Shown here in pieces: positions 15,305 through 52,008 of a DNA stretch of 64,000 nt. Position 1 is the stretch's first letter, and the number at the start of each line of letters is the position of its first letter. The DNA comes from Treponema sp. (GTDB taxonomy: Bacteria > Spirochaetota > Spirochaetia > Treponematales > Breznakiellaceae), in NCBI GenBank assembly GCA_031256035.1, contig JAIRRJ010000075.1, forward strand, positions 62,001 through 126,000, in the 5' to 3' direction. The translations under genes and the position numbers were made by a program. The notes under the pieces were generated by a model. It did not search any database. It worked only from the letters and a program-made list of their open reading frames with translations, and was not told the DNA's origin.

Positions 15305-16048
15305 ATGAGCCTTGACGAACACGAACCCGTGCTGCACCGCATACACGTTAAACTGCATCCAAGCAATCTGGGCAAAATGGAAGGGAAGTACTTTGCGCGC
15401 ACCGCAAGCGAGGCTTCCCAGAGCATAGAGCAGGTTTGCAAAGCTGATATGGAGCGCGGCGGCGGCACGGGCAGCTATGACGACATGGTCAAATATGTAA
15501 AACGCTTCCTGAATGAAGCCGCCTACCAGCTTACGGACGGTTTCGCCGTTGACTTCGGCTTCTTTTCAGTCCGCCCGCATATCGGCGGAACCTTTGACAG
15601 CAAGTATGAAAAACGCGACCCGCAGAAACACCCCGTCAGCTTTCATTTCCGCGCCCATGCGCCCCTTAAACGCCTTACCAATTACATCGAGGTAGAAGTC
15701 GATGGAATCGCGGACAGCCGCTGCATAGGCCGCCTCTTTGATCAGGAGTCAGGCACAGTGAACGAAAAGCTCACCCCCGGCGGCTTCTATAGCCTGCACG
15801 GAAGCCGGATAAAAGCCGCCGGAGACGACCCGCGTGTGGGCGTGTACTTTATTCAGCAGGGCATCGAAAACGTACAGATACGCGCCAAACGCATCAGCTC
15901 TAACACAACCACAAAGATAATCGGCATTGTCCCCGCCCTGCCCGCCGGAACCTACAAAGCCGCCGTCTTAACCCAGTACGTCAGCGGCACTGTCAGCCTT
16001 AACGAGCCTAAGCTGATCGAGAGCCTCTTTACACTAAAGGTGGACTAA
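15305..16048 (+). CDS. HU-like DNA-binding protein with DUF4469-type Ig domain, copy 1
   Basis: A 247-residue protein. The start is the ATG giving MSLDEHEPVLHRI, which follows AGGAGG at 15296-15301. Residues about 10-125 look like the HU/IHF-type DNA-binding domain found in HU-HIG proteins (YFARTASEASQSIEQVCKAD, YDDMVKYVKRFLNEAAYQL, VRPHIGGTFDSKYEKRDPQ). Residues about 145-247 fit the Ig-like DUF4469 domain (TPGGFYSLHGSRIKAAGDDP, GVYFIQQG, GIVPALPAGTYK). A paralogue of 252 residues is encoded at 51250-52008 with the same layout (YQLCDGFAV, GGVFDG, LHGSKIKLEGNDPSVGLYF). Both genes are followed at once by a tandem palindrome array of 23-bp period. Chromosome or repeat binding is inferred, not shown. 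Confidence 0.85.
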   Translation: MSLDEHEPVLHRIHVKLHPSNLGKMEGKYFARTASEASQSIEQVCKADMERGGGTGSYDDMVKYVKRFLNEAAYQLTDGFAVDFGFFSVRPHIGGTFDSKYEKRDPQKHPVSFHFRAHAPLKRLTNYIEVEVDGIADSRCIGRLFDQESGTVNEKLTPGGFYSLHGSRIKAAGDDPRVGVYFIQQGIENVQIRAKRISSNTTTKIIGIVPALPAGTYKAAVLTQYVSGTVSLNEPKLIESLFTLKVD

Positions 16049-16072: not shown

Positions 16073-16165
16073 AAATTTAGCTAAATTCGTACAGGAATCT
16101 AGCCTAAATTTGCTTTGGAATTTAGCCTAAATTTGTGTTGGAATTTAGCTAAATTTGCCTGTACG
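16073..16165. repeat. Tandem AT-rich palindrome array, 23-bp period
   Basis: Four copies of an AATTTAG/CTAAATT palindrome are centred near 16080, 16103, 16126 and 16149, giving a period of about 23 bp. The last three are enclosed by an 8-bp inverted repeat, CGTACAGG (16088-16095) and CCTGTACG (16158-16165). The array starts 25 bp after the stop codon of the HU-like gene. No separate spacers exist, so it is not CRISPR. Confidence 0.9.
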
Positions 16166-26375: not shown

Positions 26376-28385
26376 ATGGCAGAAAAAAAGAAATTAACAT
26401 GGACTGACGGCACTGTTTATGAAGGCGATGTTGTTAATGAAAAAATGCACGGTAAAGGGAAATTAACATGGACTAACGGCGATGTTTATGAAGGCGACTT
26501 TGTTGATGGAAAACGTACCGGAAAAGGTAAGCTTACATTTGCCAACGGCGATGTTTACGAAGGCAATTACGTTGATGAAAAACGATCCGGAAAAGGCAGG
26601 TTTACATATGCCAACGGCGATGTTTATGAAGGCGATTATGTTGACGGAAAGCAACAGGGAAAGGCAAAATATACATACGCAAACGGTGATGTTTATGAAG
26701 GCGATTATGCTAATTGGAAACAACACGGAAAAGGCAAACTCACATTTGCAAACGGCGCTGTTTACGAAGGCGACTTTGTTGATGGAAAACGTACCGGAAA
26801 AGGTAAATACACATTTGCAGACGGCGCTGTCTATGAAGGCGATTTCATTGACGGCAAACAACACGGAAAAGGCAAACTCACATTTGCAAACGGCGGTGTT
26901 TATGAAGGCGATTTTGCTGACGGCAAACTACACGGAAAAGGTAAACACACCTTTGCAGACGGCGGTGTTTATGAAGGCGATTGGGTTGATGGGGAATCGC
27001 ACGGAAAAGGTAAAAAGATATTCGTAAACGGCGATGTTTACGAAGGTGACTATATTGACGGAAAAAAACACGGAAGGGGTAAATACACATTTACAGGCGG
27101 CGATGTTTGTGAAGGCGATTGGGTTGATGACAAAACGCACGGAAAGGGTAAATACACATTTACAAACGGCGATGTTTATGAAGGCGATTGGGTTGATGGA
27201 AAACAACACGGAAAAGGAAAAATTACTTTTGCAGACAGTGCTGTTTATGAAGGCGGTTATGTTGACGGTAAACGTACCGGCAAAGGAAAAATTACATTTG
27301 CGGACGGTGGTTTTTATGAAGGCGATTTTGTTGACGGCAGATTTCACGGAAAAGGGAAATTAACATTTCCAGAAGGCAATGCCTACGAAGGCGATTTCGT
27401 TGATGACAAAAAACACGGAAAGGGTAAATACACATTTCCAAACGGCGCTGTTTATGAAGGCGATTGGGTTGACGGAAAAAAACACGGAAAAGGAAAAATT
27501 ACATCTGCGGACGGCGCTGTTTATGAAGGCGATTGGGTTGACGGAAAAAAACACGGAAAAGGAAAAACTACATTTCCAGAAGGCGATGTCTACGAAGGCG
27601 ATTTCGTTGATGACAAAAAACACGGAAAGGGTAAATACACATTTCCAAACGGCGCTGTTTATGAAGGCGATTGGATTGACGGAAAAAAACACGGAAAGGG
27701 TAAATATACATTTACAGACGGCGCTGTTTATGAAGGCGATTTTGTTGATAACAAAATACATGGCAAAGGAAAAATTATTTTTGCAGACAGTGCTGTTTAT
27801 GAAGGCGATTGGGTTGATGAAAAACATCACGGAAAAGGGAAATATTTATTTCCAAACGGCGCCGTCTATGAAGGCGATTATCAAAATGGAAAACAACACG
27901 GAAAAGGGAAACTTACATTTGCGGACGGATCTGTCCAGGACGGACGCTGGGAAAATGGCGAATGCGTAGAATGGGACGCTGAGATACTGTATCTCAAAAA
28001 AGCTCAGCAGGGAGACGCTGCGGCGCAGTATACTCTCGGCGATTGCTATTTTGAAGGTAAGGGCGTAGCGCAGGATAAAACAAAAGCTGCCGAATGGTGG
28101 CGCAAGTCAGCGGAACAGGGACTCGCCATAGCGCAGAATGACCTTGGTTATTGCTATAGAGGAGGTTTCGGCGTGAACCAAGATTACGCCAAAGCCTTTG
28201 AATGGCACCAAAAGGCGGCGGAGCAAGGTAACGCCGCCGCACAAAATAATCTGGGTTATGCCTTCCACCATGGTCAGGGCATAAACCAGGATCACGCCAA
28301 AGCCCGTGAATGGTATCAAAAAGCGGCGGAGCAGGGAAACGAAAAGGCAAAGGCACATCTTGAGGAACTCAAGAGCGGAAGCTGA
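26376..28385 (+). CDS. MORN-repeat protein with C-terminal Sel1 repeats
   Basis: A 669-residue cytoplasmic-type protein preceded by AAGGAGC. Residues about 8-525 consist of 22 complete 23-residue MORN repeats of the form GDVYEGDWVDGKKHGKGKYT plus one degenerate copy. Three Sel1-like repeats of 36 residues follow (AAQYTLGDCYFEGKGVAQDK, AIAQNDLGYCYRGGFGVNQD, AAAQNNLGYAFHHGQGINQD). MORN repeats bind membranes or proteins, and Sel1 repeats are protein-protein scaffolds. The DNA is a 69-bp tandem repeat with many identical stretches (for example the units around 27361-27460 and 27571-27660), so the copy number probably varies between strains. The repeats produce false overlapping frames on both strands. 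Confidence 0.93.
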   Translation: MAEKKKLTWTDGTVYEGDVVNEKMHGKGKLTWTNGDVYEGDFVDGKRTGKGKLTFANGDVYEGNYVDEKRSGKGRFTYANGDVYEGDYVDGKQQGKAKYTYANGDVYEGDYANWKQHGKGKLTFANGAVYEGDFVDGKRTGKGKYTFADGAVYEGDFIDGKQHGKGKLTFANGGVYEGDFADGKLHGKGKHTFADGGVYEGDWVDGESHGKGKKIFVNGDVYEGDYIDGKKHGRGKYTFTGGDVCEGDWVDDKTHGKGKYTFTNGDVYEGDWVDGKQHGKGKITFADSAVYEGGYVDGKRTGKGKITFADGGFYEGDFVDGRFHGKGKLTFPEGNAYEGDFVDDKKHGKGKYTFPNGAVYEGDWVDGKKHGKGKITSADGAVYEGDWVDGKKHGKGKTTFPEGDVYEGDFVDDKKHGKGKYTFPNGAVYEGDWIDGKKHGKGKYTFTDGAVYEGDFVDNKIHGKGKIIFADSAVYEGDWVDEKHHGKGKYLFPNGAVYEGDYQNGKQHGKGKLTFADGSVQDGRWENGECVEWDAEILYLKKAQQGDAAAQYTLGDCYFEGKGVAQDKTKAAEWWRKSAEQGLAIAQNDLGYCYRGGFGVNQDYAKAFEWHQKAAEQGNAAAQNNLGYAFHHGQGINQDHAKAREWYQKAAEQGNEKAKAHLEELKSGS

Positions 28386-41975: not shown

Positions 41976-42032
<57 letters not shown>

Positions 42033-42301: not shown

Positions 42302-42335
42302 AGTTCGTGGTAAAAAAATAAATAGGAGTAATCGT

Positions 42336-42381
42336 CTCCGCGTTGCGGAGCCGTTCGATTTAATTCGCCGCTCACGCGGCG
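42336..42381. repeat. Two short GC-rich palindromes before the lipoprotein gene
   Basis: CTCCGC-GTT-GCGGAG (42336-42350) and CGCCGC-TCAC-GCGGCG (42366-42381) have the same 6-bp-arm architecture as the CGWACC family but different arms. They lie 17 to 60 bp upstream of the lipoprotein ATG at 42398, so they could also shape its mRNA leader. Confidence 0.75.
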
Positions 42382-42397
42382 TAAAGTGAGGTTATGT

Positions 42398-43450: not shown

Positions 43451-43639
43451 CGTTTTGGATAAAATCCAAAGCGTTATGGACGAAAACCAAAGCGTTTTGG
43501 ATAAAATCCAAAGCGTTTTGGATTAAAACCAAAGTGTTTTGGATTAAAACCAAAGTGTTTTGGACAAAAACCAAAGCGTTATGGACGAAATCCAAAGCGT
43601 TTTGGACAAAATCCAAAGCGTTTTGAAAAAAATCCAAAG
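43451..43639. repeat. Nine tandem 21-bp hairpin units
   Basis: Nine exact-length 21-bp units, each with a TTTTGGA...TCCAAA or TTTTGG...CCAAA inverted pair; a partial tenth unit follows. Read in one plus-strand frame the unit gives the heptad VLDKIQS (variants VMDENQS, VLDEIQS), which looks like a coiled coil, but GATTAA in units 4 and 5 introduces stop codons and no start codon precedes it. The array ends 26 bp before the ATG of the Lys/Ala-rich protein. Confidence 0.93.
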
Positions 43640-43665
43640 CGCTTGGTAAAAAATAGGGAGGATTT

Positions 43666-44475
43666 ATGGCGAAAAAGAAAGCAGTTACCACAAAAAAGAA
43701 ACCGTCTTCCGTTTGGAAGACGACAACACCAGCAAAGAAGACAACAATCGCTAAAAAGAAAGCTCCGGCAGCAAAAAAGAGAGCCGCGAATGTTCCCGTA
43801 AACCTTGCAAATAACGGCGCGCATCAGCAAAATATCCCCTTATTGCCGCCAAGCCTCATGGAAGACGCAATGACATCCGTCAAATCAAGCATGGAAGATT
43901 TTGTTGACATTGCGAATAACAACCTTACAGCGGCGCAGCGCCGCCGGAAGATTGGCCCCGGCGTGCGCAATTACGGCTTCATCGACAAAGTTTCTGACTT
44001 AGCAGACGCCAACCCGCAGTTCGCCCAGTTTTTCAAAATTGCCGATCTTAAAAATTGCATACGCAACATTGAAATGTGCCGCGACCTTGTCATATTGTTA
44101 CATTCATTTGCAAGAGCCGTAACCAACACCATGCTCATTTACACCGATGACGCATACAGCATGGCGCTGATTTATTACAACATGGTAAAGGAAATGTCAA
44201 AGCGCGGCGATCCCACAGCAATGGAACTTTACCGCGACCTGAAAACCTACTTTAAGAGAGTAAAACACATCACCGCCGAACCCACCGAAAAAGAACTGGA
44301 ACGCGATCTTCACGCATTAATTCACGGTAAATCGAACCAAAGGTTCGCGGACGGAAAAATCGTTGTCGAAAACATCAGCCCTAAAACAACCGCAGGTATG
44401 CGCAAAGTAGTGGACGATGTACGCAAGGGAAGAGCGGCAGTTCGGGAGACAGAATCAATGAGCAGTGAAGAGTGA
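43666..44475 (+). CDS. Lys/Ala-rich-tailed protein, possible DNA-binding
   Basis: A 269-residue protein with SD GGGAGG. Residues 1-45 are extremely basic and Ala/Pro/Thr-rich (MAKKKAVTTKKKPSSVWKTT, AKKKAPAAKKRAA), like a histone H1 or HU tail. The body is helical (LTAAQRRRKIGPGVRNYGFI, DLVILLHSFARAVTNTMLIY, AMELYRDLKTYFKRVKHI). The body resembles a hypothetical family known mainly from Bacteroidetes, whose function is unknown. Codons at 44333-44347 (GKSNQRFADGK region) are supplied by a CGAACC mini-palindrome. The upstream 21-bp hairpin array and the basic tail suggest nucleic-acid binding. Confidence 0.72.
   Translation: MAKKKAVTTKKKPSSVWKTTTPAKKTTIAKKKAPAAKKRAANVPVNLANNGAHQQNIPLLPPSLMEDAMTSVKSSMEDFVDIANNNLTAAQRRRKIGPGVRNYGFIDKVSDLADANPQFAQFFKIADLKNCIRNIEMCRDLVILLHSFARAVTNTMLIYTDDAYSMALIYYNMVKEMSKRGDPTAMELYRDLKTYFKRVKHITAEPTEKELERDLHALIHGKSNQRFADGKIVVENISPKTTAGMRKVVDDVRKGRAAVRETESMSSEE
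44333..44347. repeat. Mini-palindrome CGAACC-AAA-GGTTCG inside a gene
   Basis: A perfect 6-3-6 palindrome in the coding sequence of the Lys/Ala-rich protein. Its length of 15 bp keeps the reading frame, adding about five codons in the loop before the C-terminal region. Confidence 0.88.
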
Positions 44476-50598: not shown

Positions 50599-51033
50599 TT
50601 ATTTCTTTACAAGCCCACCGCCGGCAACAGTTCCAACTTTTTCACCTTGATATGTAATACCGAGCATTTCTTTACCCTCATATTCGGTATAAGCAATAAA
50701 GCCAATGCCATCATTTGGACCTTTGAGCATTGCATATTCTGCAGTAACACCGTTGGGAAGACTCTTCTTTTGTGATTCTATAGAATCTTTAAGCCCTTTC
50801 GGTAAGTCTGATAAATCCGTAGTATAAGTGCCGCTCTCTTTTTTGCCATCATATTCTATCGTAAAATTGCCGCCGGAAAGCGTTAGTTTTACAGGCTTAC
50901 CTGCCCACGGCCCCTCTTTGCCTTCCCAGGTTCCCTCAAAAGGATCACTGTCTTCTTCATCGCAACTGACGAATGCGAACCCGATTGCCAGCGCTATTGC
51001 CAGCATTCCCAAAAAAACAAGTCTCTTTTTCAT
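50599..51033 (-). CDS. Small lipoprotein with lipocalin-like fold
   Basis: A 144-residue lipoprotein. The start is MKKRLVFLGMLAIALAIGF with lipobox AFVSC, followed by an acidic stretch EEDSDPFEGTWEG. The mature part has eight short beta-strands (FEGTWEGKEGPWAGKPVKLT, GGNFTIEYDGKKESGTYTTD, KGPNDGIGFIAYTEYEGKEM) like a lipocalin or fatty-acid-binding barrel, though no ligand residue can be assigned. Its leader is a near copy of the one in front of the downstream propeller lipoprotein. It lies between two accessory elements, and the HU-like gene and its array are immediately upstream. Confidence 0.8.
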   Translation of the reverse strand: MKKRLVFLGMLAIALAIGFAFVSCDEEDSDPFEGTWEGKEGPWAGKPVKLTLSGGNFTIEYDGKKESGTYTTDLSDLPKGLKDSIESQKKSLPNGVTAEYAMLKGPNDGIGFIAYTEYEGKEMLGITYQGEKVGTVAGGGLVKK

Positions 51034-51072: not shown

Positions 51073-51126
51073 AAACAAGCCTGCTGTCCAACGGACAGCT
51101 TACAGGCTGTTTTTCCACAAAATCAT

Positions 51127-51247
51127 GCCCCGGCGCTGGGGGCAGATGCCACTAAAGCTTGGTGGCAAACGCCACTAAACCTTGGTGGCAAACGCCACTA
51201 AACCTTGGTGGCGATCGCCACCAAAGCTGGGCGGCGGACGCCCCCAG
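51127..51247. repeat. Tandem GC-rich palindrome array, 23-bp period
   Basis: Five hairpin units. The first has arms GCCCC/GGGGC. The next three have GCCAC/GTGGC, centred at 51157, 51180 and 51203. The last, centred at 51226, has GCCACC/GGCGGC. The period is exactly 23 bp. The change from GCCCC/GGGGC to GCCAC/GTGGC is compensatory, so pairing appears to be selected. The array ends 3 to 10 bp after the stop of the HU-like gene on the minus strand. Confidence 0.92.
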
Positions 51248-51249
51248 GT

Positions 51250-52008
51250 CTACGAAGATTCCAGAGTAAAGTGGCTGGTTATAACACGCACTTCCTTGAC
51301 CGGACGCCCTGACATTCCCGAAAACTGCGTGCGCACCTCTATACGGTTGCTCTGATACCCAGTATCAGGCGCTATCCCCGTTATCTCCGTGGGGTTGTTT
51401 TTGCCGATACGCTTTACCTTGACAGCCTTGGACGGGTCGTCCACTGGTACAAAATACAGCCCGACAGAGGGGTCGTTCCCTTCCAGCTTGATTTTGCTGC
51501 CGTGCAGAGAGAACATATTCCCCGGTATGAAAATCCCGTTCACCGAATCCTCTTCCTGGTCGGTGAAGGTGTCGATATACTCTCCCGAGTCCGACAGCCC
51601 TTCAAGGATTACCTTGATGTCTTTGGTCAGATCTTTGAGCTTCGCGCGTATGCTGAACTTAAAGCCGACTGGGTGCTTTTTGTGGTCGTGCATCTCGTTT
51701 ACGCCGTCAAAGACGCCGCCTATTACGGGATACGTGGTGAAATAGCCGTTCGTTACGGCAAATCCGTCGCAGAGCTGGTAAGCCCATTCCTTGTTGAACT
51801 GCTTCACGTTTTCCAGCAGGTCTTCATACTTGCCGGTGAAGCCCGCGCGCGTCTTCATGATGCCGCAAATATCGCTGACCGTAAGCGTCCTCTCGCTGTT
51901 GGTGCGCGCGATGTACTTGCCTTTCGCATTGGGCAGGTAGCTTTTGAATAACTTCGCACGGATTTTGTGGAAGATAAGCCCTGGTTCGTCATCATCTTTT
52001 TTTGCCAT
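51250..52008 (-). CDS. HU-like DNA-binding protein with DUF4469-type Ig domain, copy 2
   Basis: A 252-residue paralogue of the gene at 15305. Start MAKKDDDEPGLIFHKIRAKL after AGGAG. The HU-like part has IARTNSERTLTVSDICGIMK, YEDLLENVKQFNKEWAYQL and VIGGVFDGVNEMHDHKKHPV. The Ig-like part has IPGNMFSLHGSKIKLEGNDP, SVGLYFVPVDDPS and GIAPDTGYQSNRIEVRTQFS. A Lys/Asp-rich tag is at the start. Both paralogues keep the CDGFAV/TDGFAV and GG-F-D core. The gene is followed within 10 bp by a 23-bp palindrome array, as is its paralogue, although the two arrays share no sequence. Confidence 0.85.
   Translation of the reverse strand: MAKKDDDEPGLIFHKIRAKLFKSYLPNAKGKYIARTNSERTLTVSDICGIMKTRAGFTGKYEDLLENVKQFNKEWAYQLCDGFAVTNGYFTTYPVIGGVFDGVNEMHDHKKHPVGFKFSIRAKLKDLTKDIKVILEGLSDSGEYIDTFTDQEEDSVNGIFIPGNMFSLHGSKIKLEGNDPSVGLYFVPVDDPSKAVKVKRIGKNNPTEITGIAPDTGYQSNRIEVRTQFSGMSGRPVKEVRVITSHFTLESS

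Follow-up and report, generated by a model that had tools for sequence, protein, structure and literature searches.

HU-DUF4469 genes beside private 23-bp dyad arrays: candidate self-addressed nucleoprotein elements in Treponema and Bacteroidota

Introduction

Several described systems pair a protein gene with a neighbouring element that belongs to it. As they are commonly described, the Rep–iteron, ParR–parC and TubR–tubC systems have a protein gene beside a regular array of presumed sites, and polymorphic toxins have a constant body and a variable C-terminus, with an adjoining downstream element that changes with it. Type III toxin-antitoxin systems consist of an RNA repeat array plus a nuclease. 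Here, we analyse a gene–array pair in a stretch of 64,000 nucleotides (hereafter the window) from a Treponema sp. (GenBank assembly GCA_031256035.1, contig JAIRRJ010000075.1, positions 62,001 to 126,000). This pair (pair 2, at 51 kb) consists of a gene for a protein with an HU-type DNA-binding domain and an immunoglobulin (Ig)-like DUF4469 domain, and of a tandem array with a period of 23 bp. A second HU-DUF4469 gene with its own array (pair 1) lies at 16 kb.

The solved protein BVU_2165 of Bacteroides vulgatus (4fmr) has the same two-domain fold and the same domain order. Burroughs, Aravind and colleagues reportedly described HU-Ig clades of the HU/IHF superfamily in 2017, with HU fused to Ig-like domains, and are said to have proposed roles in chromosome biology and conflicts. 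HU-Ig proteins gave no PADLOC or NCBIfam match and no significant PHROG match (best E 0.027). We found no description of the arrays in searches of an open-access library; the 2017 work is not known to describe private arrays but may mention them. The only paper found that treats such a protein (PMC12724145) mentions no array in the passages available.

Compared with iteron and centromere systems, the present loci have a mirror-symmetric ladder with steps of 11.5 bp, many private arrays per chromosome and an HU-Ig protein, and no nucleoside triphosphatase (NTPase) or replication partner was seen by eye among the 66 next open reading frames listed. In polymorphic toxins the downstream element is an immunity gene, whereas here it is a DNA array, and Pfam finds only the HU and Ig-like domains. 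A ToxN-like nuclease was not encountered at pair 2, whose protein is HU plus Ig and has no PADLOC match. The principle of a protein with adjacent binding sites is familiar. A fixed ladder, free sequence, privacy and a tip-plus-array module are not combined in any known kind of system that we can name, and on this ground we regard the class as new. The explanation that we prefer, at slightly below an even chance, is a self-addressed nucleoprotein element made up of gene and array, in which the protein would bind its own array, the C-terminal tip would read the half-sites and the complex would control its locus.

Results and Discussion

The pair 2 protein matches PF14848 (HU-DNA_bdg; E 4.1e-21, 75.7 bits against a Pfam cut-off of 30) and PF14734 (DUF4469; E 3.3e-15, 56.3 bits against 22.6). 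The nearest named relatives found for it are from Treponema metagenome-assembled genomes, which we take from the isolate names to be of termite-gut origin. Tandem Repeats Finder (TRF) places the array at 51135/51137–51242, with a period of 23 bp, about 4–4.6 copies and GC-rich arms, starting 7 bp past the stop codon (Table 1). Pair 1, with PF14848 and PF14734 matches at G000:C17:77353 and 77725, has the same layout, and the arms of its array are unrelated to those of pair 2. In the source genome assembly (3.12 Mb in 120 contigs), the 14-base core of the pair 2 unit, with at most one mismatch, occurs twice in its own array and once elsewhere, there with one mismatch.

The layout with its fixed period recurs far beyond the window, across two phyla. 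The source genome has 13 PF14848 and 15 PF14734 matches, and the 12 full-length genes among L001–L013 have a 22–23-bp array downstream in eight cases and upstream in three (L002, L005, L011); L012 has no TRF array. Of the genomes searched, PF14734 is present in 10 of 39 for the genus and in 44 of 112 for the family (20 of 45 genera), with up to 25 matches per genome. A large part of these loci, not all, was fetched (159 genes in 158 loci), and 151 genes included their stop codon with 150 nt or more beyond it. These 151 are open reading frames (ORFs) with a stop codon that match the HU-DUF4469 profile, some of them contig-end fragments; eight duplicate loci of the source genome were left out, and L023, L034 and L036 gave no profile-matching gene. 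A TRF array starts within 150 nt past the stop codon in 100 of the 151, with a period of 23 bp in 89, 22 in six, 24 in four and 17 in one. Among the remaining 51 genes, ten have a 23–24-bp array and one a 21-bp array within 600 nt upstream, where sequence existed. Control ORFs of at least 150 residues from the same loci had an array in 1 of 147 cases when arrays less than 700 nt from HU-DUF4469 genes were set aside; with those arrays kept in, it was 27 of 154, most of them HU-DUF4469 arrays viewed from a neighbour. Arrays were also found at 43 of 59 named Treponema loci (200-nt limit; this set overlaps the family set), beside 16 of 23 PF14734 genes in two Chryseobacterium type strains (11–12 copies each), beside all four genes of one Parabacteroides distasonis strain, at single Prevotellaceae and Bacteroidales loci, and upstream of the gene in Marinilabiliaceae JC017 (22 copies). 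Among the Bacteroidota loci, L235/L268, L237, L241, L243, L249 and the phage-collection contig L251 were TRF-negative, and viral contigs yielded no relative. The first-pass annotation had placed a GC-rich 23-bp array within 10 bp of the pair 2 gene and had proposed that layout and pairing, not sequence, are conserved. The former is confirmed, and conservation of layout and period without that of sequence holds among paralogues and in both phyla: 99 of the 100 downstream arrays have periods of 22–24 bp, and the copies are mostly unlike in sequence. Depending on the locus, an array has about 2 to 36 copies of its unit; 23-bp arrays of 27–36 copies lie beside HU-DUF4469 genes at L026 (1935–2756), L124, L084 and L132.

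The arrays have a mirror symmetry of their own. An axis was scored by the six base pairs at 3–8 bp on either side of it. The stretch 51111–51250 contains eight axes with at least five pairs (500 shuffles: mean 1.36, maximum 6), and six consecutive axes of the pair 2 array are spaced exactly 11.5 bp apart. A single axis in this array is perfect, and the GCCCC/GGGGC pairing crosses a unit boundary. The pair 1 array is weaker, with six axes (shuffled mean 1.26, maximum 6) and a less regular spacing. The 150-nt stretches past the 100 array-bearing genes contain 493 axes with at least five pairs against 130 after shuffling, and 694 pairs of axes whose spacing is a multiple of 11.5 bp, to a limit of 57.5 bp, against 3.1. 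Such pairs of axes numbered 2 within genes (shuffled 4.2), 24 at 600–750 nt downstream, where long arrays may be included (shuffled 3.1), and 15 after the 51 genes without a downstream TRF array (shuffled 1.2). At 34 Bacteroidota loci there were 134 axes against 36, the top spacings being 11.5, 34.5, 23 and 46 bp. Because periodicity alone yields part of the axis signal, columns were also shuffled within units with the period kept. An axis with at least five of six pairs was present in 56 of 103 array consensuses, compared with 12.5% of column-shuffled units, and a perfect axis in 21 of 103, compared with 0.7%; a freer dyad score gave p of 0.05 or less for 41 of 103 arrays. In 42 arrays chosen for their dyads, agreement between units was 0.86–0.97 at the arms (3–8 bp) and fell to 0.69–0.78 at the centre and far edges. 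This analysis, like those of mismatches and of covariation below, excluded arrays with weak dyads or indels. The array is thus a ladder of half-sites in alternating orientation, about 11.5 bp apart.

The sequence on this ladder turns over. For period-23 arrays (22- and 24-bp units were left out), proteins more than 80% identical share a mean of 12.8 of 23 unit positions at the best rotation, compared with 10.5 for the most distant pairs, and 5 of 29 such pairs reach 16 positions. The arrays are unrelated in L020/L022, L095/L125, L063/L118 and L038/L039 despite 86–92% protein identity (the L095 and L039 proteins are partial). In Chryseobacterium several copies have one array type, so that privacy there belongs to types rather than to single copies. 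L128 and L152 are apparently one locus in two genomes (gene 86% and downstream DNA 90% identical), yet their arrays differ. By eye, the L128 array opens with units of the TTGATCGCG type and closes with TATAACGCG units, whose arms are of the L152 type; in an intermediate unit the two arms are of different types, one from either set. Arms thus seem to be replaced stepwise, and it is only between related arrays that they appear to change jointly. The first-pass annotation had read compensatory arm changes between units as evidence of selection on pairing. Such compensation was not found: within arrays (dyad p of 0.1 or less, no indels), 38 of 109 informative cells were paired against a shuffle mean of 38.1, in a weak test with nine informative columns, and the end units of the pair 2 array, compared by eye, differ without restoring a pair. 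What survives of that claim is indirect, namely the excess of DNA dyads over column-shuffled units and the joint exchange of arms between related arrays.

The array type is coupled to the end of the neighbouring gene. In L038/L039 and L125/L095 the genes are 88–100% identical in nucleotide sequence until about 120 nt before the stop codon, and gene and array then diverge together. Protein pairs at least 55% identical were compared by window according to whether their arrays were similar (n = 83) or dissimilar (n = 336). The difference in identity was −0.03 to 0.04 over most of the HU domain, about 0.03–0.10 in the Ig domain and 0.14–0.15 in the last windows. The HU domain as the sole reader was rejected, since identity over most of it is independent of array similarity. 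Over all pairs, partial correlations of protein segments with array similarity were weak throughout (0.056 or less), the signal being confined to close relatives. The 23 Chryseobacterium genes were clustered from the 112 nt after the stop codon alone, and 22 proteins were then compared; L295 (109 residues) was omitted here and from the pair alignments. Same-cluster minus different-cluster identity was −0.05 to 0.13 in the windows before column 216 and 0.33, 0.29 and 0.24 in the last three windows, about 24 residues (0 of 1000 permutations each). Of the 191 pairs between clusters, 92 had a gene DNA alignment that stopped 60–100 nt ahead of the stop codon; in 56 it stopped within the final 59 nt and in one before the 60–100-nt range. 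Within clusters it continued at least 90 nt past the stop codon in 39 of 40 pairs. In 74 of the 191 between-cluster pairs similarity returned at about +150 to +180 and extended over a median of 96 nt. This stretch contains, by eye, a terminator-like hairpin, and the type-specific block of these pairs thus has shared DNA at either end. It is plausible that each paralogue recognises its own array, and the pattern of divergence makes the C-terminal Ig tip the first candidate reader. Three of the four Parabacteroides distasonis proteins (L250, L310, L311) end alike, with GGG(G)DSESPDEI beyond the tip region.

This coupling need not mean recognition, since exchange of a functional module and linkage alone could both give it. 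With linkage alone, tandem repeats would arise at a 3' end prone to recombination, gene conversion would homogenise the body of the gene as far as the heterologous border, and tip and array would co-vary as neighbours. The gradual climb of the array association toward the 3' end in Treponema and the divergence of synonymous sites in the tip are consistent with this. That the 23-bp period and the dyad geometry are the same in two phyla, and that dyads are retained under arm replacement, requires selection on the array itself, and we consider linkage alone quite unlikely.

The preferred explanation, a protein bound to its own array, assumes that the ladder acts as DNA. As an RNA element, the array would be a ladder of hairpins in the 3' untranslated region that the protein would bind or that would stabilise the mRNA. 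The array probably lies in the transcript, and 79 of the 100 downstream arrays begin within 50 nt past the stop codon. A hairpin in RNA would tolerate G-U pairs more readily than A-C mismatches on the transcribed strand. In 37 arrays, downstream arrays had 49 G-T and 41 A-C mismatches on the sense strand (p = 0.46), and upstream arrays had 7 and 21, in the opposite direction. DNA is favoured over RNA because there is no G-U bias, and an RNA hairpin was not borne out by this measure. Some dyads would also leave a loop of only 0–1 nt, 11 of 103 arrays precede the gene, and Rfam gave no match at gathering score in the window. Taken together, these data make an RNA element improbable, a little more so than linkage alone. 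Terminator-like sites on the gene strand lie at the far end of the pair 2 array (51126–51144) and beyond it (51083–51099), and the pair 2 stretch has five such sites on both strands compared with 1.7 in shuffles. An intrinsic terminator was rejected as the explanation of the array: termination is possible there, but it leaves the ladder unexplained. At Chryseobacterium loci such as L274, L277, L286 and L289, arrays of different types are followed at about +150 to +280 by conserved DNA that includes a terminator-like hairpin (CTCCGG...CCGGAGTTTT) and GGCTTCGGCTCCGCTCAGCCA.

The surroundings of the genes bear on mobility and on locus function. Among 66 listed relatives, the next ORF is co-directional in 46 and by eye often has a signal-peptide start, the ORF calls being mechanical and some perhaps spurious. 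In a Treponema denticola trtA mutant, the homologue TDE_2259 and the BspA gene TDE_2258 fall together (PMC12724145), which fits a shared transcription unit if, as the locus numbers suggest, the two are adjacent. At 14 sister loci past a DHH gene (about 118 kb), none of the other neighbouring genes of the window was found, and there was one 21-bp and no 22–24-bp array. In Parabacteroides distasonis NZ_OY725812.1 (L312, 2397–3395), the gene and array lie on the opposite strand between two ATP-binding cassette (ABC)-transporter genes, the counterparts of which touch in two other Parabacteroides genomes (G126, G128). It is possible that this gene and array are an insertion. A mobile or homing unit of about 1 kb, copied from place to place with the array as landing or copying site, would fit this case, although the ABC permease compared is only 42% identical to the one beside L312 and the empty site is inexact. 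Such a unit would also fit the changing neighbours, the presence of up to 25 copies in some genomes and none found in 29 of 39 in the genus (many incomplete, although 9 of 11 good ones also have none), and the Chryseobacterium copies of one type, which share gene and array and have largely different flanks among the matches listed. However, no transposase, integrase or terminal repeat was seen by eye as a constant partner among the next ORFs, and wholly different arrays beside some 90%-identical proteins would be odd for a shared landing site. A mobile unit is unlikely on these data, and the least unlikely of the alternatives. A centromere-like site of a partition or anchoring system is suggested by the regularly spaced site array beside a DNA-binding protein gene, as in parC or tubC. 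We regard it as very improbable: many different arrays occur per chromosome, and no NTPase or replication gene was constant among the 66 next ORFs, judged by eye with no family search made.

Binding of the protein to its own array remains our preferred explanation. From the sequences we infer that dimers of an HU-type DNA-bending protein with an Ig-like second domain would sit on the adjacent array. With one 6-bp half-site per about 11.5 bp in alternating orientation, they would line one face of a slightly underwound or bent double helix as a ladder. The protein body would set the geometry, and the Ig domain would read the half-site letters through its variable C-terminal tip, perhaps helped by the HU arm. 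Tip and array would then be an exchangeable private module, by which many paralogues could coexist without cross-talk. The local complex may control the gene that encodes the protein and also, at roughly two thirds of the loci listed, the following gene on the same strand; we lean toward local control as the function, and it is the least certain part. A broader proposal, which we hold more tentatively than the element itself, is that such elements occur across phyla, with the last 24 or so codons and the dyad ladder swapped as an address module. The Ig tip and 6-bp half-site would then be an evolvable code that prevents cross-talk among up to 25 paralogues, and an unrelated second protein family of the source genome may have built a similar private ladder, with a period of 21 bp.

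Several observations weigh against this explanation. No 22–24-bp TRF array was found downstream or in the upstream stretch of 41 of the 151 genes, some of which have single or decayed dyads by eye; the earlier expectation of arrays beside other paralogues thus stands for the 100 genes with downstream and the ten with upstream arrays, and fails for these 41. A dyad of five of six pairs is lacking in 47 of 103 array consensuses. The association with array type is not confined to the tip, since the HU arm region in Treponema gives 0.02–0.09 and three N-terminal windows in Chryseobacterium give 0.06, 0.13 and 0.06 (p of 0.005 or less). In 42 of 191 between-cluster pairs the alignment continues beyond the stop codon, by up to 30 nt in 32 and farther in 10. 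Third-position identity of the tip codons in Chryseobacterium is 0.29–0.50 between types and 0.66–0.85 within them; tip and array are thus one linked DNA block, because the third positions diverge too. No constant neighbour gene was seen by eye among the 66 next ORFs. In the window, and by eye also in Chryseobacterium, the array separates the stop codon from terminator-like hairpins and may thus be transcribed; the Chryseobacterium case raises the RNA reading and lowers our preferred one.

If the protein reads its own array, the loci would provide more than 100 natural cognate loop–target pairs on a fairly constant body (103 arrays were parsed), from which a protein–DNA recognition code would be directly learnable. 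It would also be a first handle on DUF4469 proteins and a case of HU-type proteins gaining sequence specificity via a second domain.

Table 1. Positions of the HU-DUF4469 genes, their arrays and an adjoining gene in the window
Feature	Position	Strand	Basis or remark
HU-DUF4469 gene, pair 2 (252 aa)	51250..52008	-	ORF listing and Pfam
HU/IHF-like domain of pair 2 protein, residues 19-137	51598..51954	-	
Ig-like DUF4469 domain of pair 2 protein, residues 145-241	51286..51576	-	
C-terminal tip codons of pair 2 gene, residues 229-252	51253..51324	-	Tracks array type in Chryseobacterium and Treponema relatives
Private 23-bp array of pair 2, dyad axes every 11.5 bp	51135..51242	-	TRF and dyad scan
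HU-DUF4469 paralogue, pair 1	15305..16048	+	ATG at 15305; listed ORF opens at TTG 15287
Array private to pair 1, 23-bp period, arms AT-rich AATTTAGCTAAATT	16074..16157	+	TRF and sequence
Lipoprotein-like gene past the pair 2 array, same direction	50599..51033	-	ORF listing; signal peptide and Cys by eye

Other repeats in the window and related loci

A second gene–array system lies on the plus strand of the window at 43451–43641 and 43666–44475, where a Lys-rich protein of 269 residues, unrelated to HU-DUF4469, is encoded beside a private palindromic array with a period of 21 bp. The protein has no Pfam, NCBIfam or PADLOC match and a weak match to PHROG 15829 (E 2.6e-4). Its family has nine matching places in the source genome, four in G035 and one in G010. 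Six of the 14 loci fetched (L296, L298, L299, L302, L303, L306) have 21-bp arrays of at least 3.8 copies and differing sequence, four upstream and two downstream.

The window also contains a 69-bp tandem repeat of about 22 copies (26406–27928), the in-frame consensus units of which are like DGDVYEGDFVDGKKHGKGKFTFA; by eye these resemble what we take to be MORN repeats. Tandem repeats of seven bases are GATTGCC (8 copies, window 41976–42032), TCAACAG (14.6 copies, L001 1–102) and CAGTGAG (9.7 copies, L010 587–654), the latter two near HU-DUF4469 genes of the source genome. A leader with two GC-rich palindromes (CTCCGCGTTGCGGAG and CCGCTCACGCGG) precedes lipoprotein-like genes at about 42330–42390 of the window and downstream in L013, and in L028 (821–1060) it occurs in tandem (60 bp, four copies) ahead of an HU-DUF4469 gene.
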